From Gemmatimonadota bacterium (lineage in GTDB: Bacteria; Gemmatimonadota; Gemmatimonadetes; Gemmatimonadales; Gemmatimonadaceae), in contig JARIEX010000009.1 of assembly GCA_031127095.1 (NCBI GenBank), positions 1 to 47,863 of the forward strand: 47,863 nucleotides of DNA. Reading direction: 5' to 3'. How positions within the stretch are numbered: position 1 is the first letter of the stretch; the number at the start of each line of letters is the position of its first letter. Under the pieces are notes generated by a model. That model searched no databases. It worked only from the letters and a program-made list of their open reading frames with translations, and was not told where the DNA came from. A program made the translations under genes and the position numbers. Positions 1,605 through 29,452 of the stretch are shown one piece after another.

Positions 1605-1640
1605 GCGTACGTCCTCCGGTCGCGTCGATTCACCGGCGCC

Positions 1641-4316: not shown

Positions 4317-4374
4317 GACAACTCCGTCAGCAGAGGGTCGAACGACGCGAGAAACAGTGAGACAGCGGCACAGA

Positions 4375-7729: not shown

Positions 7730-7746
7730 GTCGGTGTGTGTCCCGC

Positions 7747-9612: not shown

Positions 9613-9697
9613 TCCGTTCGGGTCGGTAACAGGGCCAGGAGAAACGCGCGTGCGGTGACGCATCGCGGACAACCGACGGCGTGACGCCGCGGCGCGG

Positions 9698-10405: not shown

Positions 10406-10900
10406 TTACACCGTGGCCGTGCGAACGTCCCAGGAGAAGCCGGTGCCCTTGGACATCGCGCCCTTGCCGTCCTGCTTCATGTACTGGCCGGTGATCTTGC
10501 CGAAGGCGAGGGAGAGCGACTCGGTGGGGGAGTCGTCGCCGCCCGAGCTGCCCGACCACTGGATGCTCTCGACGTAGACCTCTTCGAAGTCATACTGCAC
10601 GAACGCTTCCTGCGTCCCGCCCGCCTTGCGGAGGATCAGCTGGGCCTTCTTGAAGTGCGTGCCGGTCGCGCAGGCCTGAAAGAGCGGGCCGGAGGCATTG
10701 TCCGACTTCTTCATGAAGTTGAAGGACGAGAGCGAGACCTTACCGGCGCCGCCGCCGCCGCCCTGCGTGCCCATCGAGGCGGGGTTGCTGGCTCCGAAGC
10801 TGAACGAAAAGATCTCCATCGGCTTGCCGTACGGCGCCTTGATCTTCGCCGTGGATTCGCCTTCGATGGTGTCGATAAAGAGGTACGCGTCAAACGCCAT
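10406..10900 (-). CDS. hcp/tssD: Hcp/TssD, T6SS inner tube protein
   Basis: Hcp hexamers stack to form the inner tube and can carry small effectors. The 164 residues show the Hcp1-family pattern: DAYLFIDTIEGESTAKIKAPYGKPMEIFSFSFGASNPAS, then KVSLSSFNFMKKSDNASGPLFQACATGTHFKKAQLILRKAGG, VQYDFEEVYVESIQWSGSSGGDD, and PTESLSLAFGKITGQYMKQ. A glycine-rich loop (GTQGGGGGAG) at about 44-53 lies where Hcp proteins vary. The gene lies about 117 bp downstream of tssC, the largest gap in the leftward operon, so extra internal regulation of hcp is possible; no convincing promoter or terminator is visible in that gap. Confidence 0.95.
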   Translation of the reverse strand: MAFDAYLFIDTIEGESTAKIKAPYGKPMEIFSFSFGASNPASMGTQGGGGGAGKVSLSSFNFMKKSDNASGPLFQACATGTHFKKAQLILRKAGGTQEAFVQYDFEEVYVESIQWSGSSGGDDSPTESLSLAFGKITGQYMKQDGKGAMSKGTGFSWDVRTATV

Positions 10901-11017
10901 GATCTGTCACTCCGGCAGAGGTGAGGAAACGTGGACTGAGAAGTTCTGCGGGTACGGTGCTACGGGTACCGCCCGCGGCGACCGGCGTGAGACCGGGCGC
11001 CGCGGTGCCGGTCGTGA

Positions 11018-12496: not shown

Positions 12497-12497
12497 G

Positions 12498-13004
12498 TCA
12501 GCTCTCCAATCCGAGTTCAGCCTTGAGCTTGGCCATCTTGTCGGCGTCGCCCAGCGTGTCCTGCAGCACTTCGTCGAGCTTCTCGTTGGTCTGCAGATTG
12601 GCGCGCAGGTTGGCGAGTTCGGTGCGCAGCTCCAGCAGCTCGCGCAGCGGCTTCACCTGGCGGGCCACCTGGTCGGGCGAGAAGTCGTCCATGCTGCGGA
12701 AATTCAGTTCGATGCCGAGCTTGGGGGCGTCGGCGTCTTCACTGAGCTTGTTCTCCACCGAGAACTGGAGGCGCGGCTTCATGCTGGCCAGCGTCTCGTC
12801 GAAGTTGTCGGGGGTGATCTCGGCGAACTTGCGATCCTTCAGGCGCGGGAGCGGCTCCGCGGGGTTACCGCTGAAGTCACCGAGCACGCCCATGAGGAAC
12901 GGAAGCTCCTTCATTTCGATGGCACCGCCCGTTTCGACTTCGTACGAGATCTGAATGCGGGGCGGGCGGACGCGTTCGAGCTTCTTCTGGGTACTGTCAG
13001 CCAT
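12498..13004 (-). CDS. tssB: TssB, small contractile sheath protein
   Basis: TssB is the small sheath partner of TssC. The 168 residues include the characteristic N-terminus (KKLERVRPPRIQISYEVETGGAIEMKELPFLMGVLGDFSG), RLKDRKFAEITPDNFDETLASMKPRL, and ELNFRSMDDFSPDQVARQVKPLRELLELR. It is the first gene of the leftward T6SS operon and is transcribed away from tssK1. Its promoter must lie in the 208-bp divergent region that follows. Confidence 0.96.
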   Translation of the reverse strand: MADSTQKKLERVRPPRIQISYEVETGGAIEMKELPFLMGVLGDFSGNPAEPLPRLKDRKFAEITPDNFDETLASMKPRLQFSVENKLSEDADAPKLGIELNFRSMDDFSPDQVARQVKPLRELLELRTELANLRANLQTNEKLDEVLQDTLGDADKMAKLKAELGLES

Positions 13005-13212
13005 GCAACACTCCGGCGCGAATGGAACGGGGAGAGGGGGGGTAGCGGGTGTGAAACACTCCTCACCTAGTGTTGGCCACCGCTCGAAGAAATGTCAAGC
13101 ATTTGCAACGTTGCGTCTACGCAACAGTTTTGATGTTCTACGCCAATCGGGCGTGCGCACACACGCGGCGCCCGCCTCTGACGACCGGATCGCGGAAGGG
13201 ATACGTTACGGT
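13005..13212. promoter_or_regulatory. Divergent control region between tssB and tssK1, with GTTGC-type inverted repeats
   Basis: This 208-bp non-coding region separates the leftward sheath operon from tssK1. GCAACGTTGC (13105-13114) is a perfect palindrome. It overlaps a second perfect inverted repeat, GTTGCGT-CT-ACGCAAC (13110-13125), giving three adjacent half sites. On the minus strand a TTGACA matching a sigma-70 -35 box lies at 13098-13093, about 90 bp before the tssB start, though I do not see a good -10. The surroundings are AT-richer than the genes. That the repeats are an operator is inference. Confidence 0.5.
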
Positions 13213-14562
13213 ATGCGCCACTCACCGCCGGTACTTTGGACGAAAGGCGTCCTGTTGACGCCACAGCATCTGCAGGCGCAGGACCGACACCACGAGGAAG
13301 CCCTCGCGTTTCAGGTTGGCGCGCTGGCCTTTACCCCGTGGGGACTCTCCCACCTTGCGATCGACCTGGACGCGCTGGCCGGCGGCACGTTGGTCACGAC
13401 GGCGATCGCCGGCCGGTTTGCCGATGGCTTGCTGTTCGACGCGCCACTGGCGGGGGCGACCCCGGCGCCGAAATCGCTGACCGCCGCGTTCGGGCCCGAT
13501 CAGCCCACGGTGCTCGTGCACATCGCGGTGCCGGAGTATCGCCCCGGGGCCCGCAACGTGGCCCGCCGCGCGGACACTCAGGTGAGCGCGCGGTGGCTCT
13601 CCGACGAGCAGTTGCTGCGCGACGAGACGACGGGGCAGACGGAACGTCCGATCCAGGTGTCGCCGCCGTCGCTGCGACTGTTGCTGGAAGGGGAAAGTCT
13701 GGAGGGGTACACGGCGATGCCGATTGCGCGGCTGCGCCGGTCCCCAGCCGGTGACGTGAGCCTTGATGCCACGTTCGTGCCGCCGTTGCTCGATCTGTCG
13801 GCCAGTGACGTCATGATGGGGCTGATGCGTCGACTGACCGAGCGGCTTGGCGCGCGGAGCGCGTCGCTGTCGGGGAGCCGTCGGCAGCGGAATCAGGGGC
13901 TGGCCGATTTCACCGTGGCCGACGTGGGGAGCTTCTGGCTGCTTTATACGATCAACACGCATCTGCCGTCGATCCGCCATCTGCACGAAGTACGGCGCGG
14001 TCATCCTGTGGCGCTGTGGGAGGCGATGCTGGCGCTGGTGGGCTCGTTGTCGGCTTTTTCGACGAGTGGCGATGCCCGCTCGCTGCCCACGTACGATCAC
14101 CTTCGGCTGGGCGAAGGGTTTCAGGAACTGGAGCGCCGGCTATACGCGCTGCTGGATGGGGCGGTCGTCGATGCGGCCGTCGCTCTGCCGCTCAAGCCGG
14201 TGCGCCCCACACTGCATGCGGTCGCGATTGAGCAGACCACGTGGCTGGAGGCGCCGCAGTGGTTTCTGGCGGTCAGCGCTCCGGTGCGGCAGCAGGAGCT
14301 GATTCCGAAGGTACTGCAGGGGTGCAAGGTGGGGGCCGCGGATGTGGTCGACACGCTGATCCGTCAGGCGCTGCCCGGGATCGAGCTGGCCCATATCTCG
14401 TCGCCGCCGTCGGCGGTGCCGGTGAAACTCGACTTCCAATACTTCGCCATCCGGCAGGCGGGGAGCGCGTGGGACGCCATCGTGCGGGCGCGCAATCTGG
14501 CCGTGTACGTGCCGGCCGAACTGGTGGACGCGCGCTTCGAACTGGTGATCGTGCTTCGCTAG
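13213..14562 (+). CDS. tssK: TssK, first copy: T6SS baseplate-to-membrane adaptor
   Basis: TssK links the baseplate (TssEFG) to TssL/TssM. The real gene starts at the ATG of MRHSPPVLWTKGVLLTPQHLQAQDRHHEEA. The 86 residues before it in the ORF track have no similarity to the family and run into the control region. The N-terminal vW-G-LL-PQHLQ pattern is the family hallmark. Further landmarks are VADVGSFWLLYTINTHLPSIRHL, HPVALWEAMLALVGSLSAFS, LPTYDHLRLGEGFQELERRLYALL, and the C-terminal PVKLDFQYFAIRQAGSAWDAIVRARNLAVYVPAEL. The length is 449 residues. A second TssK gene follows 1.8 kb downstream, which is unusual. A GGAAGGG run lies about 12 nt before the ATG. Confidence 0.93.
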   Translation: MRHSPPVLWTKGVLLTPQHLQAQDRHHEEALAFQVGALAFTPWGLSHLAIDLDALAGGTLVTTAIAGRFADGLLFDAPLAGATPAPKSLTAAFGPDQPTVLVHIAVPEYRPGARNVARRADTQVSARWLSDEQLLRDETTGQTERPIQVSPPSLRLLLEGESLEGYTAMPIARLRRSPAGDVSLDATFVPPLLDLSASDVMMGLMRRLTERLGARSASLSGSRRQRNQGLADFTVADVGSFWLLYTINTHLPSIRHLHEVRRGHPVALWEAMLALVGSLSAFSTSGDARSLPTYDHLRLGEGFQELERRLYALLDGAVVDAAVALPLKPVRPTLHAVAIEQTTWLEAPQWFLAVSAPVRQQELIPKVLQGCKVGAADVVDTLIRQALPGIELAHISSPPSAVPVKLDFQYFAIRQAGSAWDAIVRARNLAVYVPAELVDARFELVIVLR

Positions 14563-14582
14563 GGGGGCTGCCCGCCGCGGAG

Positions 14583-14608
14583 CCCGCGGGACCTGTGGTC
14601 GCCGCGGG
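14583..14608. terminator. Likely bidirectional hairpin terminator between tssK1 and the Pro-rich gene
   Basis: CCCGCGG-GACC-TGT-GGTC-G-CCGCGGG can fold into an 11-bp stem with a 3-nt loop and one bulged G. It sits in the 55-bp gap between two convergent genes. There is no good U-run, so the call rests on stem strength and position. Confidence 0.5.
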
Positions 14609-14617
14609 CGGTCCCGC

Positions 14618-16159
14618 CTAGCTGGTGGGGATGGCCGGGGCGGCGACCGACGGGATGGCGGGAGCTGACGGGGCCGTGGGGACCGATGGGGCAACGGGAG
14701 CCGACGGGACCGGCTGCTGCAGCACGACCACCACAATGATGACCGCGATCAGGATGATGACGTTCAGGATCACGATGAGCGCCATCGGGATGCGGCGTTT
14801 CGCGGGGGCGGGGGCGGCCTCCGTGGCGGCGGGCGGTGCGGGTGTGGTGGGGACGACCGGTGCCGCCGCCTGACTGATCAGGCGGGTGAAATCACTGGGC
14901 CCCGCGCCGCCGGCCGGCGCTGCGCCGCCCATCGGTGAGAGGGGCGTACTCCCGCCCAGTCCGAACACCGGGGGCGGGAGGATGCCCGGGGGTAACGGGT
15001 GCGACGCCCCCATCGGCGATCCAGCGGGCGCGGCCGGGGTGATGGGCGTGGGTGGCGCCGCCGCCGTGATCGGCAACGGGGCCGCCGGCGTGAACGGGGC
15101 GGGCGCCGGCGGGTGTGGGGCGCCGAAGAGCGGCGACTGCCCGAAGAGCGGCGAGGGCGCGGGGGCGGCGGGGCTGGCCGGTGTGACGACGGGTGGCGCG
15201 AAAGGCGGTGGCACCGGAGCCGCCGGCCTGAAGGCGGGTGGTGCCGAGGCCGGTGGCGCGGCGAAGCTGGGTGGCGTGACGAGGCCGGGCGACACGGGCG
15301 ACGCCGGCATCGTCTGCGGAAGTGGGGCCGCGGTTGGTGGGGCCGAGAACATCTGGGTGAACTCACCCGGCCCGGATTTGGGGGCGATCGGGGGCAGCGG
15401 CGCGAGCGGGGGCATGGTCAGCGCCGGCACGAAAGGCGCCGGTGGAACATGACTTTCTGCCTTTATACTGAACGGATCATGCGCTGGTGATGGCGCTATT
15501 TCTGGCGTTTTCGGCACGGAGGGGGCGCCGAACATTTGCGTGAACGCGCCCGGTCCGGGCGGAGCCGGTGCCGGCGCCGGCGCGAGGACCGGCACCGGGA
15601 GTGGCGCCGCGGCGGCTGGTGGGACCGGCGCCGCCGGTGCGATGGACGCCGCCGGTGCGACCGGCACGGAGGGGGCGCCGAACATCTGCGTGAACACGCC
15701 GGGGGCGGCCGGTGCGGGCGGCGGGGGGAAGGCCGCCGGCGCGGGCGGGAGCGCGGGGGCCGGGGCCGGCGTCGCCACCGGGGCGGTCACCGGCATGGCT
15801 ACCGGCATGGCTACCGGGGCGGCTATCGGGGCGGCTATCGGGGCGGCTACCGGGGCGGCCAGCGGCGCCACGCGCGCCGCGAGCCACGCGGGGAACGACG
15901 AGAGCCCGGCCAGAAATTCTGTTACGATGGCGAAGCCGGAGGGCAACGTTGCCGTTTCGAGCACGCGGTTCCGGTCGGCCACGGGGAGCCGATCGATGAG
16001 GTGGCGGAGCTGCTCCACCTCGTCGGGGCCGGCCGCGTCGGCCAGATGCACCATGACCACCCGGCCGGTCGCGAGTTCCTGGGCATTGTGACTGCGAATG
16101 CCGTCGCCCACCGCCACGCACTTCAGCAGGCGGTACCGTGCACTGAAATCGTCGCTCAT
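14618..16159 (-). CDS. Pro/Ala-rich membrane-anchored protein with degenerate kinase N-lobe and FTQMF-type repeats
   Basis: I do not recognise a named family. The first 90 residues or so (RYRLLKCVAVGDGIRSHNAQELATGRVVMVHLADA...SGFAIVTEFLAGLSSFPAWL) follow the pattern of a Ser/Thr kinase N-lobe and align by eye with the PpkA-like kinase nearby (RYLVTDLLGEGGMG...AAIKVL...GTVYLAMEFIAG). The glycine-rich loop is degraded, the catalytic Lys position reads H, and no C-lobe follows. A long Pro/Ala region (about 95-440) carries four related motifs: GVFTQMFGAPSVP, GAFTQMFGAPSVP, GEFTQMFSAP and SDFTRLISQA (near residues 153, 203, 264 and 420). A single hydrophobic helix (IPMALIVILNVIILIAVIIVVVVL, about 465-488) and a short Pro-rich tail end the protein, so most of it should face the cytoplasm. 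Its place between the two tssK genes suggests a T6SS scaffold or regulator; that is inference. Confidence 0.7.
   Translation of the reverse strand: MSDDFSARYRLLKCVAVGDGIRSHNAQELATGRVVMVHLADAAGPDEVEQLRHLIDRLPVADRNRVLETATLPSGFAIVTEFLAGLSSFPAWLAARVAPLAAPVAAPIAAPIAAPVAMPVAMPVTAPVATPAPAPALPPAPAAFPPPPAPAAPGVFTQMFGAPSVPVAPAASIAPAAPVPPAAAAPLPVPVLAPAPAPAPPGPGAFTQMFGAPSVPKTPEIAPSPAHDPFSIKAESHVPPAPFVPALTMPPLAPLPPIAPKSGPGEFTQMFSAPPTAAPLPQTMPASPVSPGLVTPPSFAAPPASAPPAFRPAAPVPPPFAPPVVTPASPAAPAPSPLFGQSPLFGAPHPPAPAPFTPAAPLPITAAAPPTPITPAAPAGSPMGASHPLPPGILPPPVFGLGGSTPLSPMGGAAPAGGAGPSDFTRLISQAAAPVVPTTPAPPAATEAAPAPAKRRIPMALIVILNVIILIAVIIVVVVLQQPVPSAPVAPSVPTAPSAPAIPSVAAPAIPTS
15777..15860. repeat. Seven tandem copies of a 12-bp unit inside the Pro-rich gene
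   Basis: The units read accggggcggtc, accggcatggct (twice), accggggcggct, atcggggcggct (twice) and accggggcggcc. On the minus strand they encode the tetrapeptide series APVAAPIAAPIAAPVAMPVAMPVTAP. Copy number could vary in frame without breaking the gene. Confidence 0.85.
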
Positions 16160-16337
16160 GATCGGGGATAGCCGGAAGAGTGCACGGGAGCGCCGGAACG
16201 ACGCGATAACTGCCCCGCTGATGTATTGTTCAATTGTTCACGCGCCTCCGGCCACGCGCAATGTGTTGCCTGCATCGAGCCGGACGTGTGACGTTGCCCG
16301 ACGTGCGCTTTGCGACCTCGCTGCCCCCTCCGCTGCC
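16160..16337. promoter_or_regulatory. Divergent control region before tssK2, with a perfect 8-bp tandem repeat
   Basis: This is non-coding sequence between the leftward Pro-rich gene and the rightward tssK2-tssL-tssM block. It contains ATTGTTCAATTGTTCA (16225-16240), two exact copies of ATTGTTCA, an AT-rich patch that stands out in this GC-rich DNA. Its position suits a promoter or an activator site. I see no clear -35/-10 pair. Confidence 0.4.
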
Positions 16338-17759
16338 ATGCGCCTGACCTCACCGCCGTCCCGCCGCGTCGTCTGGGAAGACGGCATGCATCTCGCGCCG
16401 CAGCACTTTCAGGCGCAGCGCCGCTATCAGGAAGACCAGACGTCGCGGAGCTTCGACCTGCTGGTCCCGTTTGCGTACGGCCTCTCCGCCGTCGCCCTCG
16501 ATGCAGAGGCGCTGCAGAACGGCACGCTGGCGCTGCTGCAGGCCCGCGGCGTGCTCCCTGACGGGACTGTTGTACACAGCCCCGATGCGGACCCCGCCCC
16601 CGCCCCGTCGGGGCTCGCCGATCGATTTTCCCCCACGCGCGACGCGCATGTTGTGCATCTGGCGCTGGCGCACTGGCGCGCCGATGCCGCCAATGTCGAT
16701 GCGATCGCGACGCCCGATGATGCGTCCGATGACGTGTCCCGTGCGCGCGACGCCGGAACGCGGCGGCGTTTTCAGGCGATCGAACAGCTGGTCATCGACG
16801 AATCCACCGGGGCCGATCCGTTGCCAGTGCGCTTTGCGGCCCGCCAGCTGCAGTTGCTGCTGGACGACGAGGTCACGGACGACGTGGTCTCCCTTCCCGT
16901 CGGGCGCATCACACGCGATGGTCGCGGACATTTTCAAGTGGACGCCGCGTTCATCCCGCCGGTGCTGCAACTGGGCGCGAGCGAGGCGCTGCTGGCGTTG
17001 CTGCGCCGCACGGTGAGCCTGCTCGAGGCCAAGGGGAGTGCCCTCGCGGCCACGCTGGTCAGCGCGCCGTCCGGCGCGGTCGGCGGTGCCGCGGCGTATG
17101 TCGGCAACGAGCTGGCCACCCGCTGGCTGTTGCACGCCGTCCGCTCCGCCGACGCGCCGTTGCGCCATCTGCTGCTCACGCGACGGGCGCATCCGGAACG
17201 GCTGTTCCTCGAGCTGTCGCGTCTGGCCGGGGCGTTGTCGACGTTCGCGCTCGGCGGGCACCCCCGCGATCTGCCGTTGTACGATCATGACCGGCTCACC
17301 GACGTGTTCGCCGATCTCGAACAGCGGCTGCGCGCGCAGCTCGATGTCGTGCTCTCGGCCCGCGCGATCATCGTGCCGCTGCAGGCGACCGCCGATTTTC
17401 TGCATGTCGCGACGCTCTCCGATCCGCGCTGTTTCGAGCCCGGTGCCCGCTGGTTTCTCGGCGTGCGGGCCGATGTGGGCCGTGCGGAGCTGGTGGACCG
17501 CGTGCAGCGGCTCACGAAAACGTGCGCGAGCAAGTTCGTGCTGGAGCTGGTGCGTCGTGCGTTCAACGGCCTTGCCACCGAGCACGTCCCGTCGCCTCCC
17601 TCGGGGCTCGCGCCGAAGCCGGATCTCACGTATTTCGAGCTCACACTGGCCGGTCCGTGTGCGCTGTCGCTGACCGACAGCCGCGAGATCGGTGTGTACG
17701 TGCCCGATGCCCTCCCGGCGGCGTATCTGGAAGTCGCTGTGCTGCTGCCGTCGTCGTAA
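16338..17759 (+). CDS. tssK: TssK, second copy: T6SS baseplate-to-membrane adaptor
   Basis: This is the second TssK of the locus, 473 residues from the ATG of MRLTSPPSRRVVWEDGMHLAPQHFQAQRRYQED. The ORF track's longer start runs through the divergent control region. The family N-terminal signature (VVWEDGMHLAPQHFQ) is closer to the classical form than in the first copy. It shares the general pattern ATRWLLHAVRSADAPLRHLL, HPERLFLELSRLAGALSTFALGGHPRDLPLYDHDRLTDVFADLEQRL, ARWFLGVRADV and KPDLTYFELTLAGP...REIGVYVPDALP. It heads a rightward block, with tssL starting 23 bp after its stop. The two copies are clearly paralogous but diverged, so this is an old duplication or a retained second-system copy, not a recent repeat. 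Confidence 0.93.
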   Translation: MRLTSPPSRRVVWEDGMHLAPQHFQAQRRYQEDQTSRSFDLLVPFAYGLSAVALDAEALQNGTLALLQARGVLPDGTVVHSPDADPAPAPSGLADRFSPTRDAHVVHLALAHWRADAANVDAIATPDDASDDVSRARDAGTRRRFQAIEQLVIDESTGADPLPVRFAARQLQLLLDDEVTDDVVSLPVGRITRDGRGHFQVDAAFIPPVLQLGASEALLALLRRTVSLLEAKGSALAATLVSAPSGAVGGAAAYVGNELATRWLLHAVRSADAPLRHLLLTRRAHPERLFLELSRLAGALSTFALGGHPRDLPLYDHDRLTDVFADLEQRLRAQLDVVLSARAIIVPLQATADFLHVATLSDPRCFEPGARWFLGVRADVGRAELVDRVQRLTKTCASKFVLELVRRAFNGLATEHVPSPPSGLAPKPDLTYFELTLAGPCALSLTDSREIGVYVPDALPAAYLEVAVLLPSS

Positions 17760-17782
17760 CCCCACTGATTCGAGGAACACCC

Positions 17783-18502
17783 GTGTCTGCTTCGACCATC
17801 GGCGCGCCAGGGCGTCTGGCGCGTGCGCTGCAGGAGTCCCTCACCGCCGTCGTGCGGCTCCGGGCTGACCGTCAGCCCGTGACCGATGCGGCGGCGTTCC
17901 GCGGCCAGATCATCCAGCTGCTCACGCGCGCCGAACAGGAGGCGCTGCAGGCGGGATTCCCGGCCGCGGATGCGCGTCTGGCCATTTTTGCGGTGGTGGC
18001 CTTTCTGGATGAATCGGTGCTGAACACGCGCACCGCGGCACTCGCCGATTGGGCCCGTCGTCCACTGCAGGATGAACTGTTCGGTGGCCACATGGGCGGC
18101 GAGTGGTTCTTCCAGCATATCGACCAGCTGCTGGCGCGTCCCGACAGCCCCGACCTCGCCGATCTGCTCGAGGTGCATCAGTTGTGCCTGTTGCTCGGGT
18201 TCCGCGGTAAGTACGGCGCCGGTGACAACGGCCAGCTGCATGCCACGACCACGCGGGTGGCCGAGCGGCTTGGGCGCCTACGTGGCGCACCGGGTGACCT
18301 GGCGCCGCACTGGCGTCCCCCGACCGATCGCGTGGATACCACGGACCCGTGGCTGCGTCGTCTCACGATGGCGGCGATCGCCAGTGCGGCGCTGTTGGTC
18401 GTGCTCTGGGGCACGTACGCGTTTCTGTTACGCGGCGCCGCCGGCGACCTGCGTGCGCTCGCTCCGGTGGCCGTGGCCACCGGCACCGCTTCCGCCCGAT
18501 AA
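17783..18502 (+). CDS. tssL: TssL (DotU/IcmH type), T6SS inner-membrane protein
   Basis: TssL is a tail-anchored inner-membrane protein that joins TssM and the baseplate. I start it at the GTG (17783), preceded by GAGGAAC at proper spacing; the longer ORF would overlap tssK2 by some 240 bp. The cytoplasmic DotU domain shows FRGQIIQLLTRAEQEALQAGFPAADARLAIFAVVAFLDESVLN, WARRPLQDELFGGHMGGEWFFQHIDQLL, and EVHQLCLLLGFRGKYG. One transmembrane helix follows (LTMAAIASAALLVVLWGTYAFLL, about 196-218), then only about 25 residues. There is no OmpA-type peptidoglycan-binding domain, unlike extended TssL proteins. The length is 239 residues. Confidence 0.94.
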   Translation: MSASTIGAPGRLARALQESLTAVVRLRADRQPVTDAAAFRGQIIQLLTRAEQEALQAGFPAADARLAIFAVVAFLDESVLNTRTAALADWARRPLQDELFGGHMGGEWFFQHIDQLLARPDSPDLADLLEVHQLCLLLGFRGKYGAGDNGQLHATTTRVAERLGRLRGAPGDLAPHWRPPTDRVDTTDPWLRRLTMAAIASAALLVVLWGTYAFLLRGAAGDLRALAPVAVATGTASAR

Positions 18503-18516
18503 CTCCGGATCTTTCC

Positions 18517-21500
18517 ATGGCGTCTCGAAAGCCGTTCGTGCGGTGGGTGCTGGCCGCCGCCGTGCTGTTGGTGTTTGTGCTGGCGGTGGTGCTGATCGAG
18601 CGCACCGTGCGGCTCGATGTGCTCACGACGTGGGGGCTGCGCGTGGGGCTCGTGCTGCTGGGGCTGATCGCGGCCGGCACGATCTTGTGGTACCTGCGTC
18701 CGCAGGATGCCGAGCCGGTGTTGGATGCGGGTGACGACGTGCTGCTGGCGATCAGCGCCGCGCGCGCCCGGTTGCCGCGGGGGACGTTCTTCAACCGCGC
18801 GCTGGTGCTGGTGCTGGGCCCCTCGGGTGCCGCAAAGACCACGGTGGTCGCGCGGTCGGGCGGTGATCCGGAGTTGCTGGCCGGCGATGCGCCCGCAGCC
18901 GCGAGTGATGCGCCGGTGCCGACGAAGGCCGCCAACGTCTGGGCGATGCAGCAGGCGGTGATCACCGAACTCGGTGGCGCGCTGCTCACCGATGCCCCGC
19001 GCTGGGCGACGGTCGTGCGGGCGCTGCGGGCACCACGGGTGGCGGCGGCGGTTGGCAAAGGGGAGGCAGCCGCGCGCGCGGTGCTCCTGTGTGTGCCGTG
19101 CGATCTGTGCTACGCCGGCGGTAACGGGCAGCAGCTCGAGCAGCTCGCGCAGTCGCTGCGGCAGCGCCTCGCGGAAGCCTCCCGCGAACTGGGGCTGGCG
19201 GTGCCGGTGTATGTGCTGTTCACGAAGATGGATCGCGTCCCGCATTTCGAACCGTGGATCAGCGTCTTCACCAAGGACGAATTGCGCGCCCCGCTCGGCG
19301 CCACGCTCCCCTTCGACCCCGCGTCGAACAGCGGCAGTTACGCGGAGCGTCTCGCCCCGCGCCTCGATGCCGCATTCCGCGAGATCATCGATGTGGTCGC
19401 GGTGCGCCGTACCGACCTGCTGGGGCGCGACGGCGCGCTTGACCGCCGCTATGCGTCGTATGAATTACCGCGCGAACTGCAGAAGCTGCAGCCGTCGCTG
19501 ATGTCGTTCCTGCTGGAAGTGTGCCGGCCCACGCAGCTGGGGGCGAGTCCGCAGCTGCGCGGCTTCTACTTCACCGGCGCGCGGCCGGTGGTGGTGACCG
19601 ATGTGGCCCCGTCACCGGCGCGCGCGGTGGCGGCGGCGCCCGCGCCGACGGCGGCCGATGCCACCGGCATCTTCCGTCAGCCGGTTGTGGCGTCCTCGGC
19701 CGCCGGGTCGCCGTTGGCGGCCGCCTCCAGCAGCCGCAAGGTGCCGGAGTGGGTGTTTCTCGACCGCCTGCTGCGCGAGGTCGTGCTGGCCGACACCAGT
19801 GCGGCGGCGGTGGCACGCGGTGGGGTCGGCGTGCAGCGCACGCGCCGCGTGCTGTTGGGGTCCGCCACGGCGGCCGCGCTGCTGCTGCTGGTCGGCGTCA
19901 CGGCGTCGTGGCTTGGGAACCGCGCGCTTGGCGTGCGCGTGGCGGATGCGGCACGTGCCGTGGCCGCGTTGCCGGTCGTGCAATCGGCGCCGGGTACGAT
20001 CGCGTTGCCGTCGCCCGATGCGTTGCGTCGGCTCGAGGCGCTGCGGGCGCAGCTCGACACCGTGCGCCGGTACAACCAGGACGGTCCGCCGCTGCGTCTG
20101 CGCTTCGGCCTGTGGAGTGGTCCGGCGGTGTTCGAGGCAGCACGTCCGGTGTGGTACGCCGGGTTCCGCTCGCAGCTGTTCGCCGATGGTCAGCGCGCGT
20201 TGATCGATTCACTGCAGGCGTTGTCCGATACGCCGTCGCCGTCCGACGACTATGGCACGACGTACGCGCGGTTGAAGGGGTATCTGATCACCACCACGTC
20301 GCCCGATCGCAGTACGTCGGCGTTTCTGGCGCCGGTCCTGCTGGCGAGCTGGCAGCGCGGGGTGGCCACCGATGCCGACGTCACCGGTCTCGCGCGGCGG
20401 CAGTTCGAGTTCTACGCGAGCGAGCTCCCCACGTACAATCCGTGGCCGACCGCCGCCGATGCCGCGCTCGTGACGCAGGCCCGTGCGTTCCTGTCGCGCT
20501 TCACGGGCGGCGAGCAGATCTACGTGAGCATGCTGGCCGAGGCAAACAAGACGGTCCCGCCGGTGGCCGTGCCGCAGTCGCCCGGGGTGGTGACCGCCCC
20601 ACTCGAGGTGGCGGGGGCGTACAGCGCGAAGGGCGCCGCGTTTATGCGCGACGCGTTCCGCAATTCCGATCGCTACTTCCAGGGTGAGACGTGGGTCGTG
20701 GGCGACGCGACGGCGGCGAAATCGGTGGATCGCGTGGCGATCATCGCGGCGATCCGCGCGCGGTATGACGACGACTATGTGCGCAGCTGGCGCGCAGTGG
20801 TGCAGGGCACAACGGTTGCGCGTCCGCTGAACGTGAAGGATGCGGCGGGCAAGCTGGACGTGATCGCGGGGATGCAGTCGCCGCTGTTGCAGGTGCTGCG
20901 CACGGTGGCGGTGCACACCGACACCGATTCGAGCACCCGTGCCGTGTTCCAGCCAGTGCATGCCGTGACGCCGCCGGCGGTGGTCGACAAGTACGTGTCG
21001 GAGAAGAACCAGCCGTACATGGACGGCCTGCTCGGACTGCAGGGGACGTTGGCGCAGATCGGTAATCTGCCGCCGGCTGTCGATACCGCGTCCACGCTGG
21101 CGTTGGTGCAAGCAGCGCAGCTCGCCGGCGGTGACGTCACGAAAGCGCGCGTCGCGGCGAAGCGGGTCTCGCAGGGCTTCGATGTCAGCGCCGACGCGTC
21201 GGCGATGGCCGGTGCGGTCGAGCAGTTGCTGTTGGCGCCGATTGTCGGGGCCGAGGCGGTACTCAAGACGGTGGCGTCGGCGCGTCCGCCGGCGAAGCGT
21301 GTGGTGGTCGCGGCGGCCCCAGCAGCCGGCGGTGGCGGTGGTGGCGGCGGCGGGGCGGCCGAGGCGGCGGCGCTCAACGAGCGTGGTCGTGCCCTGTGTT
21401 CGCGCGTCGATCAGCTCACGTCACGATTCCCGTTTACCCCCGACGCCGCCACCGACGCCAGTCTGGCCGACGTGAAGGCGATTCTGGCGCCGGGGACGGG

Positions 21501-22059
21501 TGAGCTGTGGGTGCTGCAGCAGGAACGGCTGGCGCCTTATCTCGAGAAGCAGGGCAACGCGTGGGTGCCGAAGGGCGGCGGCAAGGTCGAGCTGTCGGCC
21601 AGCTTCGTGTCGTTCTTCAACCGGGCGGCGGAGGTTTCGGCGGCGCTGTTCGCCGAGGATCCCACCACGCCGATGGTGCGGTGGCTCGCGAGCGGGGTGA
21701 TCACTGACCGGACGCCGCTGATGATCCTGAAGAACAACGGCAAGGAAGCCCGCTTCGATCAGAAGTCGTTCAAGAACGAGGTGGTGTGGCCGGCCACGAA
21801 CGGGCGCGATGCGGAGCTGCAGGCTCAGTTCAAGAAGAACAAGCCGATCAAGGTGCGGGCGGCCGGTGGTGACTGGGCGATGTTCCGGCTGGTCTCGGCG
21901 GCCGACGCATTCGAAGGACAGAGCGTGACGTGGAATGCCACCGGCAAGGATGCCGAGCCGGTGATGGTGCGGTTCGAAGCGCTGCGCCGTGAGGCGTCGA
22001 ATGTGCTGACCCGCGGCTGGCTCGGTCGCATGAGCTGCGTGTCGCAGGTCACCAAGTAA
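18517..22059 (+). CDS. tssM: TssM (IcmF type), T6SS inner-membrane core protein
   Basis: TssM spans the periplasm and, with TssL, makes the trans-envelope anchor. I start at the ATG of MASRKPFVRWVLAAAVLLVF, 14 bp after tssL; the track's earlier start lies inside tssL. Two N-terminal transmembrane helices (about 9-28 and 41-60) are followed by a cytoplasmic NTPase-like domain with an intact Walker A, GPSGAAKTT (101-109), and VYVLFTKMDRVPHFE. A third helix (LLGSATAAALLLLVGVTASWLG, about 447-468) leads into a large periplasmic part. A Gly9 run (about residues 935-945) precedes the C-terminal domain (FVSFFNRAAEVSAALFAEDPTTPMVRWLAS...). The C-terminal region has beta-domain strings FDQKSFKNEVVWPA and GDWAMFRLVSAADAF. 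The length is 1180 residues. The C-terminal domain normally contacts TssJ, which is not encoded here. Confidence 0.95.
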   Translation: MASRKPFVRWVLAAAVLLVFVLAVVLIERTVRLDVLTTWGLRVGLVLLGLIAAGTILWYLRPQDAEPVLDAGDDVLLAISAARARLPRGTFFNRALVLVLGPSGAAKTTVVARSGGDPELLAGDAPAAASDAPVPTKAANVWAMQQAVITELGGALLTDAPRWATVVRALRAPRVAAAVGKGEAAARAVLLCVPCDLCYAGGNGQQLEQLAQSLRQRLAEASRELGLAVPVYVLFTKMDRVPHFEPWISVFTKDELRAPLGATLPFDPASNSGSYAERLAPRLDAAFREIIDVVAVRRTDLLGRDGALDRRYASYELPRELQKLQPSLMSFLLEVCRPTQLGASPQLRGFYFTGARPVVVTDVAPSPARAVAAAPAPTAADATGIFRQPVVASSAAGSPLAAASSSRKVPEWVFLDRLLREVVLADTSAAAVARGGVGVQRTRRVLLGSATAAALLLLVGVTASWLGNRALGVRVADAARAVAALPVVQSAPGTIALPSPDALRRLEALRAQLDTVRRYNQDGPPLRLRFGLWSGPAVFEAARPVWYAGFRSQLFADGQRALIDSLQALSDTPSPSDDYGTTYARLKGYLITTTSPDRSTSAFLAPVLLASWQRGVATDADVTGLARRQFEFYASELPTYNPWPTAADAALVTQARAFLSRFTGGEQIYVSMLAEANKTVPPVAVPQSPGVVTAPLEVAGAYSAKGAAFMRDAFRNSDRYFQGETWVVGDATAAKSVDRVAIIAAIRARYDDDYVRSWRAVVQGTTVARPLNVKDAAGKLDVIAGMQSPLLQVLRTVAVHTDTDSSTRAVFQPVHAVTPPAVVDKYVSEKNQPYMDGLLGLQGTLAQIGNLPPAVDTASTLALVQAAQLAGGDVTKARVAAKRVSQGFDVSADASAMAGAVEQLLLAPIVGAEAVLKTVASARPPAKRVVVAAAPAAGGGGGGGGGAAEAAALNERGRALCSRVDQLTSRFPFTPDAATDASLADVKAILAPGTGELWVLQQERLAPYLEKQGNAWVPKGGGKVELSASFVSFFNRAAEVSAALFAEDPTTPMVRWLASGVITDRTPLMILKNNGKEARFDQKSFKNEVVWPATNGRDAELQAQFKKNKPIKVRAAGGDWAMFRLVSAADAFEGQSVTWNATGKDAEPVMVRFEALRREASNVLTRGWLGRMSCVSQVTK

Positions 22060-22089: not shown

Positions 22090-22103
<14 letters not shown>
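22073..22103. terminator. Perfect 11-bp hairpin terminator between tssM and the kinase
   Basis: GCTGCGCGCCG, a 9-nt loop and CGGCGCGCAGC pair perfectly. The hairpin lies 14 bp after the tssM stop and spans the stop codon of the convergent kinase gene (TAA falls in the loop), so it probably ends both transcripts. There is no strong U-run. Confidence 0.6.
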
Positions 22104-23910
<1,807 letters not shown>

Positions 23911-23977
23911 ACGACCTGAACGAAAGGGGGCGACCGACGGTATGTTCTGGGAATATCACCCTTCGGAGAATACCTGC

Positions 23978-24727
23978 ATGCTGACTACTACGCTCGCTCG
24001 CGGCTCCTTCCGGGCCATGGTCCTCGCCGCGCTCTCGCTGCCGATAGCGCTCGCCACGTCGGCCGCCACGGCGGCCGCACAAACTGCGCCGTCGTCACGC
24101 CCCACCGTTGCCGTGCTGTACTTCACGAACGGCGCGATCAGCAACAATGCCGACTACGCGCCGCTCAGCAAGGGACTCGCCGAGATGATGATCACGGAGC
24201 TCTCGGCGAACACCAACATCCGCGTCGTCGAGCGTGACCGCCTGCAGGCCTTGCTGGAGGAGCAGAACCTCGGTGCGAGCGGTCGCGTGGAGAAGGAAAC
24301 GGCGGCCAAGCTGGGCAAGACGCTGGGCGCGCTACACATGCTGATGGGGAGCTTCGTGATCGACCCGAAAGAGCGGATCCGCATGGACGTCCGGGCGATC
24401 AACACCGAAACGTCCGAGCTTGAATACGCGACGTCGGTGACGGGGAAAGCGGAGAATATGCTGGAGCTGCTCGCCCAGCTGGGCACGAAGCTGAACGCGG
24501 GGCTCAAGCTGCCGGCGGTGCCGGCGGGCTTTCAGGAAGGCGCGGCGGTGGGCGCGAAAGGGCCCAATCAGCTGCGCTCGATGATGCTGGTGAGCCGTGC
24601 GATCGAGGCCCAGGACCGCAAGAATCCCGCGCAAGCGGTGGCGCTGTACAAGGAGGCGGTGCAGGCCAACCCCAGCAACGCCCGGGCGAAGACGTTGCTG
24701 GCGTCGGCGGAGCGGACGGTGAAGTAG
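23978..24727 (+). CDS. Secreted CsgG/FlgO-like protein with C-terminal TPR
   Basis: The protein has a signal peptide (GSFRAMVLAALSLPIALATSAATAAAQ), then a CsgG-like domain (RPTVAVLYFTNGAI...YAPLSKGLAEMMITELSANTNIRVVERDRLQALLEEQNLGASGRVEKETAAKLGKTLGALHMLMGSFVID). It ends in one TPR-like pair (NPAQAVALYKEAVQANPSNARAKTLLASAERTVK). I chose the ATG at 23978 because CGGAGAA precedes it; 23942 is the alternative. There is no lipobox, so the product is periplasmic or loosely outer-membrane bound. It diverges from the kinase gene with only 67 bp between start codons, so the two may be co-regulated. It is a clear paralogue of the CsgG-like lipoprotein at 28469-29452. The precise function is unknown: CsgG itself is a secretion channel, but many such domains serve as envelope scaffolds. 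Confidence 0.8.
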   Translation: MLTTTLARGSFRAMVLAALSLPIALATSAATAAAQTAPSSRPTVAVLYFTNGAISNNADYAPLSKGLAEMMITELSANTNIRVVERDRLQALLEEQNLGASGRVEKETAAKLGKTLGALHMLMGSFVIDPKERIRMDVRAINTETSELEYATSVTGKAENMLELLAQLGTKLNAGLKLPAVPAGFQEGAAVGAKGPNQLRSMMLVSRAIEAQDRKNPAQAVALYKEAVQANPSNARAKTLLASAERTVK

Positions 24728-24790: not shown

Positions 24791-27235
24791 TTATGGGTCG
24801 CGCCGCAGGGTGATCGGACTCGGCGGGGCCACGCCCACCGCAGTCGAGAAGAAGAAGCCCCCGAGGAACGAATTGTTCACCGTCACGACGAACGTGCAGG
24901 GCAGGCTGTTCTCGCCGCAGCCCCCTCCCGACCAGGCGCTGAATGCCATGCCCGGGTTGGGGACGGCGGTGACTGTGACCGTCTCGTTCACGGGGAGCCG
25001 GAACACGCACGTGGTACTGGTAGAGTCAGTGCTTTGCCGCGAGCACGTTTTGCTTTGCGTGGCCGACCGGAGCTCGAATCGGCCCGTGCCTCCGAAGATG
25101 CTCATCGTGAGGTCAAGGCCCGGCACGAACCTGGCGGTGACGGTGGCCGACGTGGTGGGACTGACGACACAGGTGGCGAGGAATTGCACGGTGGCGCATG
25201 CTCCGCCCCATCCCGCGAATGCCGCGTTGGCCAACGGCCGCGCGTTAAGGGAGAGTCGACCCCCGGCGGGAATTGGCGTGGTGCAGACGCCCGAGGCCGT
25301 GTTCCCGTTGATGGAGCACGCGATGGTGAAGTCCGGGGAGAGGACGCTGCCGTCGCTGGTGGAGTTCGTGGCGGCGGTGACCGTGAGGGTGTTGACCGCC
25401 GGATTAAAGGTCAGGCCCACGGTGGCGTTGGCGAGCAGCGTGAATTGGCAGCCCGGGGCGGACGCGGTGCAGACGGTTCCGGTGTAGCCGGCAAACGTGG
25501 ATGCGGTGCCAGGCTGGGCCAGCAGTGTCACCGACGATCCGAGGTCGAGCGTGATGCTGCAGGCGCGCGAGGTTTCGGCGGCGGTTTTCGTGCAGAGGGT
25601 GGTGCCGTTGACCGCGAGTCCGCCGGCTCCGGCGCCGGACATCATGACCTCGACGAGTCCCCGCTGCCGGGTGAAGGTCGCGCCGACGGCACGCGCCTGA
25701 TCCATCGTGATCGCGCAGGTGGTGACGATGCCGCTGCAGACGCCGGTCCAGCCGGTGAATGTGGAGAACGACGAGGCGACGGCGCTGAGTGTGACGATGG
25801 TGCCGAACGGCACACTGCTGCTGCAGGTGCCGGCGTTGACGGCGTCTGTGCGCGTACAGGCAATCAGCCCCGGGGCCGTGATGGCGCCATTGCCGGTGCC
25901 GGCGGGGGTGGCGGTGAGCACCACGGCCGCATCGAACCGCACGGCGGTGGCGCGGTTCGCGCTCATCACCACGGTGCAGGTGGTGCCGGTGCTGGTCGCG
26001 CAGTCACCGGTCCAACTTCGCACGCTGTTCGGTGCCGTTGCATTCGCGGTGAGTGTGATCGAGGTCCCGTCCAGGACACTCACGGAGCAGGTGCCGCTGG
26101 CGGTGCCGGCGGAGACGGCGCAATTCAGTCCTGCCGGACTGGTGATGGACCCGGCTCCGTTACCCGTGCCGGTCACGGTGAGGGTGCGGAAGGCGCGGAC
26201 GGACAGGCCGACGGTGCGTGCCTGTGACGTGGCAATGGTGCAACTGGTCCCGGTCGCCGCGCTGCAGTCGTTGGTCCAGCCGGCGATCTGGGACAGGGAG
26301 GCCGGCGTGGCGCTGAGCACGACCTGCGCATCGCCGGGGAAGGTGAAGGTGCAGGTACCGGACAGTGCGGCACCATTGATGGCGCAGTCGATGCCGGCCG
26401 GCGCCGAGCGAATGGTGGCTTGGCCGGATGTCCCGGTCGAGACGATGGTGATGGCGGCGGGCAACGGCACGGCGCGCACTGTCACGGTGGCGGTGCGACC
26501 CCCGCTTTCCGCGGTAATGGTGGAGCTCCCCGTCCCCACGGCGGTCACGAGACCGGCGGCGTTGACGGACATGACGTTGGCGGCACTGCTGCTCCACGTG
26601 ACCGTACGCCCCGTGAGCGGGCGCCCGGCGCCATCGGCGATGGTGGCGGTGAGCTGCATGGTGCGGGAGACCTCCATGCGCAGCGGCTGGCCGGTGGCGA
26701 CGACATTGGCGGCGGGCGGCGTAATGCTGATGGTGCCGACCTCGCGCAGGGCGACGGGCTGTGTCACCGTGCGCTGGACGCCCGGGCTGAGCGACAGGGG
26801 GCCGATCACCTGGCGGTCGACGGAGGCCCCGTCGAGGATCAGATCGACGTCGAGCCGGACCACGCATTCATCGGCGGCGGGGGCGGCCCCGCTGCTGCCG
26901 GCGCGCGCGGCGTCAGCGAGGCAGGGCGCGAGATCGATCGTGACCGGGACTTGCTGGGTGGCGACATCGCTGAGTGTCAGCGTCTGCGCACTCATGTCGA
27001 CGGCGGTGCCGCCCTGCCGGAGGTACTTGGCCTTGACGGCCAGCTGGACGACGGTGGCGCGGGAGGCGGAGATGGACGCCGAGAATGCGATGCTGGCGGG
27101 TGCGTTCGGGTTGGGGCTGGTGACGTCGGCGGGGTCGCTGCACGCCGCGAGGGCGGCGAGAAGGCCGAGGACAGGGACGGCGATCCGGCGGGGCGCGGAG
27201 CGACGCATGGGGATGAGGGGCATGAGGATGGTCAT
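24791..27235 (-). CDS. Large lipoprotein with Ig-like domain and six InlB-type Cys repeats
   Basis: This is a predicted cell-surface or outer-membrane-anchored lipoprotein of about 814 residues. The start MTILMPLIPMRRS follows the upstream gene by 7 bp and gives a lipoprotein signal ending in LLAALAAC (Cys about 32). A Big_2-like Ig domain follows (TISITPPAANVVATGQ...AAGLVTAVGTGSSTITAESGG). Then come about six repeats of 75-85 residues resembling the divergent InlB B-repeat, for example LTVTGTGNGAGSITSPAGLNC...GTCSVSVLDGTSITLTANATA...WTGDCATSTGTTCTVVMSANRATAVRF. Each repeat has two pairs of Cys, which suggests disulphide-stapled beta modules formed outside the cytoplasm. The role is unknown; adhesion or matrix binding is a guess. 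It is the last gene of the operon with the barrel protein and the CsgG-like lipoprotein. Confidence 0.8.
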   Translation of the reverse strand: MTILMPLIPMRRSAPRRIAVPVLGLLAALAACSDPADVTSPNPNAPASIAFSASISASRATVVQLAVKAKYLRQGGTAVDMSAQTLTLSDVATQQVPVTIDLAPCLADAARAGSSGAAPAADECVVRLDVDLILDGASVDRQVIGPLSLSPGVQRTVTQPVALREVGTISITPPAANVVATGQPLRMEVSRTMQLTATIADGAGRPLTGRTVTWSSSAANVMSVNAAGLVTAVGTGSSTITAESGGRTATVTVRAVPLPAAITIVSTGTSGQATIRSAPAGIDCAINGAALSGTCTFTFPGDAQVVLSATPASLSQIAGWTNDCSAATGTSCTIATSQARTVGLSVRAFRTLTVTGTGNGAGSITSPAGLNCAVSAGTASGTCSVSVLDGTSITLTANATAPNSVRSWTGDCATSTGTTCTVVMSANRATAVRFDAAVVLTATPAGTGNGAITAPGLIACTRTDAVNAGTCSSSVPFGTIVTLSAVASSFSTFTGWTGVCSGIVTTCAITMDQARAVGATFTRQRGLVEVMMSGAGAGGLAVNGTTLCTKTAAETSRACSITLDLGSSVTLLAQPGTASTFAGYTGTVCTASAPGCQFTLLANATVGLTFNPAVNTLTVTAATNSTSDGSVLSPDFTIACSINGNTASGVCTTPIPAGGRLSLNARPLANAAFAGWGGACATVQFLATCVVSPTTSATVTARFVPGLDLTMSIFGGTGRFELRSATQSKTCSRQSTDSTSTTCVFRLPVNETVTVTAVPNPGMAFSAWSGGGCGENSLPCTFVVTVNNSFLGGFFFSTAVGVAPPSPITLRRDP

Positions 27236-27242
27236 CGGCGGC

Positions 27243-28472
27243 TCAGAAGCGGGTAACGACGAGAACACCGACGGATCCACCGGAGAACGCCGTGGAGGGC
27301 GCCGCGGAATCGCGCGCCGACAGGCTGCCGGCCTGAGCCCGCAGATATGGCTGCCACGACAGGTTGCCGGCGCGTGCGATGAGTCCGAGGGTGGCGCCGG
27401 CGCTCATGACGCCCGTGGTCGCCAACCCCTGCTGGATCGACAGGCCGCTGTGCCAGCGTCCGTCGGCGGTGACCAGCAGGTCGAGGGCCGGTCGGAGCGG
27501 GACGCTGGTGCGCAGGCCGCCGTCGACGTAGTTCGCCGACGAACCGTTGACGGCGGTGCCGTCGCGCTCGTACTGCGAGCGGAAGCGATGGGAGGTCCAG
27601 AGCACGAGTTCGTTGACGCGCGGGGCGGCGAGCTGCAGTTGCAGGTCGCTGGTGACAATCGGGCCGAGGCGGACGGTGGCGAGCGGTGTGGCACCGGCGC
27701 GGGTGGGGTCGCGCAGTTCGTCGGCGTTGAAGCGATCCACGGCGCTGCTGAAACTGAGGCGATGCTGGCCGATGAGGCGGTCGAGGCCGATCGAGCCACG
27801 CAGGACGTTGCCGGGCTGGTAGTCGGTGGAGGGGGCGCCTGCGGTGAGGGCGGCGACGGGCTGGTACGTGCCGCGCTGCTCGTATGACCCGCCGATGGCG
27901 ACGGCCCAAGGGCCGAGCTGGCGCGCCACCACGATGCCAAGGGTGGCGGCGGGGCCACCGCCCACCGGCGGTGCGCCAAGGCCGAGGGCCGGCGCGGCGC
28001 TGGCCCGCAGGACGGTGAGGGCATCGCCTCCCAGTTCGGTCTGCCCGGTCGGCGCGTTGATGCCGGCGGTGAGGACGACGGCGTCGTCCAGCAGTCGGCC
28101 GGTTGCGCGGACGCGGACGTCGCTGACGCCGGAGAGGGTGAGCGTCTGCGGTGTGCTGCCGATGCGGGTCTCGGTGTTCAGGCGCACCGTGGAGTACAGC
28201 GACTGGATGTCGATCGTCCACTGGCTGCCGAGGGGGACGGCGAGCGACACGGGCACGGACAGCTGCGCGATGCTGCGGAGTCGCACCGAGTCGCTCCCGG
28301 TCGCACCGGGCTGCATGTAGCCGCTGCCGCCGAACCGGATGCCTTCGGCGGTCACCCCGGTGCCGAGGGCGGCGGTACCGACCAGACGGTCCTGCGCGTG
28401 GAGGACGGTGGGGAGCAGGAGGGCGGGGAGGGCGCGCGCGAGTGTCCGCGCCGTGGTCCGAATGGACATCAT
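27243..28472 (-). CDS. Outer-membrane beta-barrel protein, function unknown
   Basis: The 409 residues start with a signal peptide (TARTLARALPALLLPTVLHAQ). The rest is rich in alternating short strands (WTIDIQSLYSTVRLNTETRIG, VRVRATGRLLDDAVVLTAGINAP, LGPWAVAIGGSYEQRG, HRLSFSSAVDRFNADEL, LQLQLAAPRVNELVLWTSHRFRSQYE). The C-terminus SVGVLVVTRF ends in an aromatic residue, as in proteins handled by the Bam machinery. I do not recognise a specific family. Its ATG overlaps the stop of the CsgG-like lipoprotein (ATGA), and the InlB-repeat lipoprotein follows 7 bp later, so the three are one translational unit. Confidence 0.75.
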   Translation of the reverse strand: MMSIRTTARTLARALPALLLPTVLHAQDRLVGTAALGTGVTAEGIRFGGSGYMQPGATGSDSVRLRSIAQLSVPVSLAVPLGSQWTIDIQSLYSTVRLNTETRIGSTPQTLTLSGVSDVRVRATGRLLDDAVVLTAGINAPTGQTELGGDALTVLRASAAPALGLGAPPVGGGPAATLGIVVARQLGPWAVAIGGSYEQRGTYQPVAALTAGAPSTDYQPGNVLRGSIGLDRLIGQHRLSFSSAVDRFNADELRDPTRAGATPLATVRLGPIVTSDLQLQLAAPRVNELVLWTSHRFRSQYERDGTAVNGSSANYVDGGLRTSVPLRPALDLLVTADGRWHSGLSIQQGLATTGVMSAGATLGLIARAGNLSWQPYLRAQAGSLSARDSAAPSTAFSGGSVGVLVVTRF

Positions 28473-29452
28473 GGGCGTACCACCGTGATCACGATGATGC
28501 CTTGCGTGGTGGGGAACGACGGGTCGGTGGAGGTGGACACGGCGCGCGAGACGTTGGTGACCAAATCGAGCGGTCGGTTGAGGCGGTCGACGGCGGAGGA
28601 AATGGCGCGGTCGAGGGGGCGTACGCCGGGAATCGCGATGGGGTTGGCGGTGCCGACGGCGCCGAGCGCCCGTGATTCCGCGGCGCGGGTGCGCGCCGCT
28701 TTGAAATTCTTGTCGAGGCGATAGGCGTCGCGAAAGGCGCTGGCGGCGCCCCGGGCATCCCCTTGATAGCTGCGCTGTACGCCGCGGCCATAGGCCAGCA
28801 GCGCCGCGACGTTCTTGGTGGGCTGCTGCTCGATGGTGGCGCGCTCCCCGGGGGTGAGCGTGATCCCGAGTGTCTGGAAGAGTCGGAACACGAGTTCCTT
28901 CTCGGCGGCGAGGATGTCGGCCAGCGGTGCGCGGGCGTCGACCGCGGTGGTCACGGTGGCGCGTTCCACGTCGCCGATGCGTGCCCCAAGGCGGATGGTG
29001 CGTCCGTCGGGGAGCGGTTCGACGGCCCCGAACACGAGCCGCTCGGCGCTGACGAGCCGGCCGACGCGCGGTGCGGTGGACGAATCGACGCGTCCCGAGG
29101 CGGCGAGGTCGAGTTCGCGCAAGACGTCGCCGAGCCGCGCCCGTTCGACCACGGTCACGCGGGCACTGCGCGAGAGATCGGTGGACACGAGGTCGGCGAG
29201 CGCGAAGGCGAGCGGCGCCAGTGTCGTGTCGCTGCCGATCGAGGCAAAGGGCGGTACACCGATGACGCCACGGCGCATGCCATCGCTGACGCCGGCGGTG
29301 CGCGCTTGCTCATTGGCCATGGCGCGGGTCGCGGCGCTGTCGGCGGCGCTGACGGGACGTGGTGCCGCGGGCGGCCGGGTGCCGGCGCAGCCAGCGGTCA
29401 CCAGCAGCGCGAGCGCCCCGAGTGGCGCAGCGCGGAAGAGCGGAGTGATCAT
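28469..29452 (-). CDS. CsgG-like lipoprotein with TPR region
   Basis: The 327 residues begin with a lipoprotein signal (LGALALLVTAGC, Cys22). A CsgG-like domain follows (RGVIGVPPFASIGSDTTLAPLAFALADLVSTDLSRSARVTVVERARLGDVLRELDLAASGRVDSSTAPRVGRLVSAERLVFGAVE). A TPR-like segment (NVAALLAYGRGVQRSYQGDARGAASAFRDAYRLDKNFKAARTRAAE) and a Pro/Val-rich tail complete it. It is the first gene of the operon with the barrel and InlB-repeat proteins. CsgG proteins form outer-membrane secretion pores in curli systems. Here the TPR extension and lack of CsgA/B-like subunits argue for a different job, perhaps assembly or scaffolding of the surface lipoprotein. Confidence 0.8.
   Translation of the reverse strand: MITPLFRAAPLGALALLVTAGCAGTRPPAAPRPVSAADSAATRAMANEQARTAGVSDGMRRGVIGVPPFASIGSDTTLAPLAFALADLVSTDLSRSARVTVVERARLGDVLRELDLAASGRVDSSTAPRVGRLVSAERLVFGAVEPLPDGRTIRLGARIGDVERATVTTAVDARAPLADILAAEKELVFRLFQTLGITLTPGERATIEQQPTKNVAALLAYGRGVQRSYQGDARGAASAFRDAYRLDKNFKAARTRAAESRALGAVGTANPIAIPGVRPLDRAISSAVDRLNRPLDLVTNVSRAVSTSTDPSFPTTQGIIVITVVRP

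Follow-up and report, generated by a model that had tools for sequence, protein, structure and literature searches.

A lipoprotein–barrel gene pair found across Gemmatimonadota and its candidate modular surface lipoproteins

Results

A three-gene locus in a Gemmatimonadaceae genome

The window analysed here is a stretch of 47,863 nt from a Gemmatimonadota bacterium (Gemmatimonadaceae; GCA_031127095.1, contig JARIEX010000009.1), numbered along the forward strand. Three consecutive ORFs, all on the minus strand, were read at 24791-29452; they encode a CsgG-fold lipoprotein (CSGG_A), a predicted outer-membrane barrel (BARREL) and a third protein that is a candidate surface lipoprotein (Table 1). 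By direct sequence reading, the stop of CSGG_A and the start of BARREL overlap in an ATGA at 28472-28469, and 7 bp separate the BARREL stop from the ATG of the third gene (27235). The positions, overlap and gap described in a first-pass annotation of this DNA were thus borne out.

Table 1. Features of the module and its neighbourhood in the window.
Feature	Position	Strand	Evidence
CSGG_A, CsgG/TPR lipoprotein	28469..29452	-	PF03783, AF2, Foldseek, tail conservation
BARREL, signal peptide and predicted outer-membrane beta-barrel	27243..28472	-	AF2, Foldseek; no Pfam match of its own
Third protein, surface-lipoprotein candidate	24791..27235	-	Pfam, cysteine pattern, start 7 bp past BARREL stop
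NDOM, N-terminal domain common to third proteins, with conserved CLAD...C cysteine pair	26726..27142	-	18-row alignment
CSGG_B, second CsgG-fold/TPR protein, convergent to the third gene	23882..24727	+	PF03783, E 1e-18
Ser/Thr protein kinase, N-terminal zinc ribbon, apparent TM segment and C-terminal region past it	22090..23910	-	PF00069, E 1e-42
Type VI secretion cluster, neighbour and not a required part	3..22059		Pfam; first ORF from sequence and BLAST

CSGG_A has a CsgG-type domain and TPR helices

CSGG_A carries a lipobox (TAGC), a domain of the CsgG/TolB-N/LpoB/PelC type and TPR-type helices. Its Pfam match to PF03783 is above the cut-off (E 7e-9) and covers only profile positions 40-98 of 210. 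In the AF2 model (pLDDT 76), the core is confident and the last 59 residues are disordered. Foldseek matched the fold to the TolB N-domain, GNA1162, LpoB, CadC, FlgT, PelC and CsgG, with E-values of about 2e-3 to 4e-3 and a TMt of 0.53-0.59 for PelC, while a profile search of PDB sequences returned mostly TPR proteins. The extreme C-terminus is a hydrophobic strand ending in RP that is kept in 29 of 30 homologues, though the linker preceding it varies; we infer that this tail may dock on BARREL.

The CsgG matches at the Pfam and fold levels would also be compatible with CSGG_A being a true CsgG-type pore, with BARREL as its assembly factor. In a profile alignment of E. coli CsgG with the CSGG_A family, however, the insertion at the first CsgG membrane hairpin is absent from the family, and at the pore-hairpin sites nothing longer than short turns is modelled (the second CsgG hairpin being judged from the model alone). 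Since the family lacks this insertion, CSGG_A as a curli-type pore was rejected. The closer fold matches are moreover the non-pore domains of TolB, LpoB and GNA1162, and the pore alternative, already disfavoured, is highly improbable. The description of the gene product as a CsgG/TPR lipoprotein stands as regards its (partial) CsgG domain, lipobox and TPR helices, but does not extend to a curli-type channel, the pore hairpin being missing.

BARREL is a predicted outer-membrane barrel outside the Omp85 group

The AF2 model of BARREL, computed with 50 relatives, reached a pLDDT of 89.6 and a pTM of 0.84. It has about 16 strands, an approximate number as the secondary-structure string gives no exact count, starting at residue 35, with a helix (149-158) inserted between strands and a C-terminal phenylalanine. 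Among its best 50 fold matches were FadL, OmpG, FapF, CymA, BcsC, AlgE, PelB, COG4313 and OprB, at TM-scores of about 0.4 and with porins and FadL ranking alongside export barrels; the match to PelB (9h80 chain M) had a TM of about 0.45, porins being among the matches too. This list limits the function of BARREL rather than fixing it, export barrels and porins not being separated by the model comparison. Searches of PDB sequences with the BARREL and NDOM profiles gave no usable match.

The first-pass annotation had called this a Bam-type barrel. The model upholds an outer-membrane barrel, whereas a Bam or Omp85 identity was rejected: BARREL has no POTRA domain, nor room for one with strands from residue 35, no Omp85 Pfam match occurred in 50 family members, and BamA, FhaC and TamA were absent from the best 50 fold matches. 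The weak Pfam matches seen among the 50 members were to generic barrel families, in one member to Phenol_MetA_deg (E 0.001). That match, together with the transporters FadL, CymA, COG4313 and OprB among the fold neighbours, speaks for the main rival reading of the locus. In that reading the pair would transport small molecules or polymer, as a channel or as an uptake or efflux complex, and the third lipoprotein would take a separate route to the surface and serve there as an accessory (lid, receptor or adhesin).

The third protein combines a common N-terminal domain with interchangeable passengers

The third protein has its lipobox cysteine at Cys32, and Pfam assigned to it a Big_2 domain (1.4e-5) and six stretches of Flg_new_2/divergent InlB B-repeat (1.8e-16). 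Its 27 cysteines are accounted for by one in the lipobox, one pair in NDOM and two pairs in each of the six repeats. The Ig domain and the six or so disulphide-type InlB-like repeats proposed earlier were thereby confirmed, with the number of four-cysteine repeats being exactly six. An odd cysteine total, found in 15 of 16 homologues, fits with one lipid-modified cysteine plus disulphide pairs.

In an 18-row alignment of third proteins, NDOM follows the lipid-modified cysteine, spans about 140 residues and holds two invariant inner cysteines. The passengers C-terminal of it differ between proteins, being InlB repeats, RCC1 propellers or tectonin/Rax2-like propellers. Of 395 genomes, 41 contain NDOM, at 53 places in all. 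Coordinate comparison put 43 of the 53 within about 5 kb of a CSGG_A-BARREL pair on the same contig, and two more sit at contig ends matching a broken pair; for about a fifth of NDOM genes, the assemblies show no neighbouring BARREL. Two genomes have NDOM and no detected BARREL (G270, and G024, a weak match). At one locus (L199 2-8554, G173:C40), four NDOM lipoproteins with different passengers surround a single CSGG_A-BARREL pair.

Third genes in families f2 and f3 also encode Big_2, and once a cohesin domain, while hhalign detected no homology between their N-termini and NDOM. In one f2 genome (L072 7953-9365, G043), the lipoprotein gene after BARREL carries Big_2 and cohesin and is followed by two very large ORFs.

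The lipoprotein–barrel pair predates the third gene and is more widespread

Members of the BARREL family were found in 164 of 395 Gemmatimonadota genomes, representing 68 of 138 genera. A script placed a CSGG_A gene directly upstream of BARREL at 66 of 68 testable loci; at the remaining two the genes were adjacent on inspection. The junction is often a 4-bp overlap in relatives as well. The pair is conserved in five families and in several genomic settings. In many Gemmatimonadaceae, the family to which the window belongs, it precedes yebC-ruvC-ruvA-ruvB; it lies near rho in family f2 and near T6SS in the window's genus (the yebC, ruv and rho names were read from sequences). Conservation across families and in such differing settings indicates that the two genes are kept together, not merely co-inherited with their neighbours. 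The lipoprotein–barrel pair constitutes a so far unnamed, phylum-wide Gemmatimonadota family.

A scan of genome contigs with the single protein gave no match, and with a close alignment it gave 15 loci, whose titles all read Gemmatimonadetes, Gemmatimonadaceae, Gemmatimonas or Roseisolibacter. The only match in a plasmid collection was Gemmatirosa kalamazoonensis.

The BARREL tree, obtained by a quick search and with counts that are not independent events, contains a split (SH-aLRT 100) between 26 barrels, none with NDOM, and a clade of 43 barrels, nearly all with it. Thirty-three of the 43 were labelled with NDOM; of the remaining ten, most represent NDOM loci in short or truncated form (e.g. 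L206, L136, L207, L209, L204), L080 being the one clear exception. Barrels with propeller-type passengers group together. The first-pass annotation had named rare adjacency of the orthologues as grounds for refutation, and its idea survived this test: CSGG_A and BARREL are adjacent almost always, and the third gene follows almost always in one of the two clades. Its notion of a self-contained three-gene system thus holds for adjacency, but the third gene is younger and less widespread than the pair.

The clade without NDOM often adjoins yebC-ruvCAB or rho, and an entire pair clade with no third gene again suits the transporter alternative. Taken alone, however, that alternative leaves unexplained both the common NDOM with interchangeable passengers and the tracking of NDOM by one BARREL clade, and we consider it unlikely, though the most serious of the rivals.

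CSGG_B and a transmembrane kinase belong to the module neighbourhood; a T6SS is not required

The neighbourhood adds to the three genes CSGG_B, whose true start probably lies downstream of the GTG, and a zinc-ribbon Ser/Thr kinase with a TM segment read from sequence. Both accompany the module widely, in relatives with and without a T6SS, and belong to its neighbourhood. In most of the window's genus an M48 peptidase gene lies divergently upstream of the module (e.g. L063 11001-12365), whereas it is absent from the window. At another locus (L099, G023:C241), a CSGG_B-like gene adjoins genes for a caspase-domain (Peptidase_C14) protein and a DUF4407 protein.

The neighbouring T6SS cluster looks complete by Pfam, with VgrG, TssH, G, F, E, A, ImpE, Hcp, TssC, TssB, two TssK, TssL and TssM; the VgrG assignment of the first ORF rests on its sequence and on BLAST matches to phage-hub-like proteins. 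The two TssK genes differ from each other (13213-14562 and 16338-17759, both on the plus strand), and exactly two are present in all ten genomes with strong TssK matches, including two of another family (G054, G058). Between them lies a 513-residue ORF (14618-16159, minus strand) in the stretch of highest G+C, with no Pfam match. A second, atypical contractile cluster, with a T6SS-iii-like sheath (PF17541), a diverged TssK and a ClpV-like ATPase, is located near CsgG-fold or BARREL genes of the module in three genomes (L068, G008; L088, G019; L069, G055).

The module might accordingly be an accessory of contractile injection systems, such as an outer-membrane replacement for TssJ or a target-binding surface factor. 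In all eight genomes of the genus with an intact TssK, it lies on the TssK contig within about 30 kb; the TssJ lipoprotein (PF12790) was absent from the window's genome and 30 relatives (31 searched), TssL and TssM being present in the cluster; and another module copy adjoins the T6SS-iii-like cluster in G008 and G019. Several genus members and most other genera nevertheless have the module without an intact TssK, and adjacency within one genus probably reflects shared ancestry. We regard this role as improbable, and rejected the T6SS as a required part, since members of the genus lacking TssK keep the module.

Discussion

Comparison with known outer-membrane systems

A CsgG-family lipoprotein at the outer membrane is also found in curli secretion (CsgG, CsgE, CsgF), which differs from the module in having a pore hairpin and no separate barrel; neither CsgE/CsgF nor curlin repeats were recognised in the window or in the inspected loci, where flanking genes of relatives were mostly judged by eye. 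The periplasmic domains of LpoB, TolB (N-domain), GNA1162, FlgT and CadC have the fold of the CSGG_A core, whereas CSGG_A combines this fold with TPR helices in one protein and its gene is linked to that of a barrel. The functional-amyloid exporter FapF, a barrel that exports a polypeptide, is among the top fold matches of BARREL without matching it in sequence, and no CsgG-fold partner of FapF is known.

The nearest working analogy for mechanism is PelBC, in which 12 lipoproteins form a ring beneath a 16-stranded barrel plugged by a helix (PMC12141448). Like PelB-PelC, the Pseudomonas Pel exopolysaccharide exporter (PDB 9h80), the module combines an ABP-fold outer-membrane lipoprotein, a barrel of roughly 16 strands into which a helix is inserted, and periplasmic TPR elements. 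The agreement is only partial: the module has its TPRs on the lipoprotein, whereas those of PelB are on the barrel protein; a surface lipoprotein is co-encoded; and there is no sequence match. The PelC-like fold of CSGG_A and the presence of PelB, BcsC and AlgE among the BARREL fold matches could alternatively point to a Pel- or cellulose-like polysaccharide export complex, the repeat lipoprotein then binding matrix or carbohydrate at the surface. Inspection of the loci, with flanks mostly judged by eye, revealed, however, no polysaccharide synthase, deacetylase or hydrolase gene next to the pair, and there is little probability that the module is such a complex.

For the logic of the cargo, the nearest analogy is Slam (type XI secretion, T11SS), where a TPR-bearing barrel acts with a lipoprotein that has separate targeting and effector parts (PMC8406197). 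Both comprise a TPR element, an outer-membrane barrel and a co-encoded surface lipoprotein (a candidate one in the module) with targeting and acting parts. The module does not belong to Slam by sequence, no DUF560/SlipAM (PF04575) match having been found by Pfam in 50 BARREL family members; its TPR and barrel are encoded by separate genes, and its common cargo domain is N-terminal, whereas that of Slam is C-terminal.

A possible split apparatus for export and display

Gene order, conservation, the common NDOM and its link to one BARREL clade are observed, and the folds are predicted. Interchangeable passengers behind a common NDOM are as expected for dedicated export or display. On these grounds, and by analogy with the two systems above, we tentatively favour, at somewhat less than an even chance, a reading of the module as a split, PelBC- or Slam-like lipoprotein-plus-barrel apparatus that would export and display proteins at the outer membrane. 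Lipidated CSGG_A would form a periplasmic ring or collar there, as PelC does, with its TPR helices receiving cargo and its conserved C-terminal tail possibly pairing with BARREL. The roughly 16-stranded BARREL would be the conduit and its inserted helix the plug. In one BARREL clade the substrate would be the co-encoded lipoprotein: NDOM would serve for recognition or anchoring, and the C-terminal region, made of InlB repeats in the window and of propellers elsewhere, would be the interchangeable domain on display at the surface. CSGG_B and the transmembrane kinase may sense or regulate assembly.

Several points weigh against this export reading. With 16 strands, the barrel would be a tight fit for a folded protein of 80 kDa, so that passage would have to be unfolded. 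In one of the two clades the pair lacks such a neighbouring cargo gene, so that it must have at least one other role. The fold matches of BARREL are unspecific, and some NDOM genes, about a fifth, lie away from any BARREL in the assemblies, with two NDOM genomes lacking a detected one.

More speculatively, and with more doubt than for the apparatus itself, the locus could represent an undescribed diderm protein-export pathway: a phylum-conserved, two-gene translocon, watched by a transmembrane kinase and made of an ABP/TPR lipoprotein and a non-Omp85 barrel, in which one clade is specialised for surface lipoproteins with NDOM as their export domain and with exchangeable display domains. A literature search among open-licence papers found no description of such a module.

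The crossing of the outer membrane by large lipoproteins is understood in few systems, the best studied being Slam/T11SS, described across Proteobacteria. If the proposal is true, Gemmatimonadota would have solved the problem a second time and independently, through a phylum-wide lipoprotein–barrel pair whose modular cargo co-evolves with it. NDOM would then be a handle for predicting cargo and possibly for displaying chosen proteins, and cultivated Gemmatimonas relatives appear to carry the module, which makes the idea testable.
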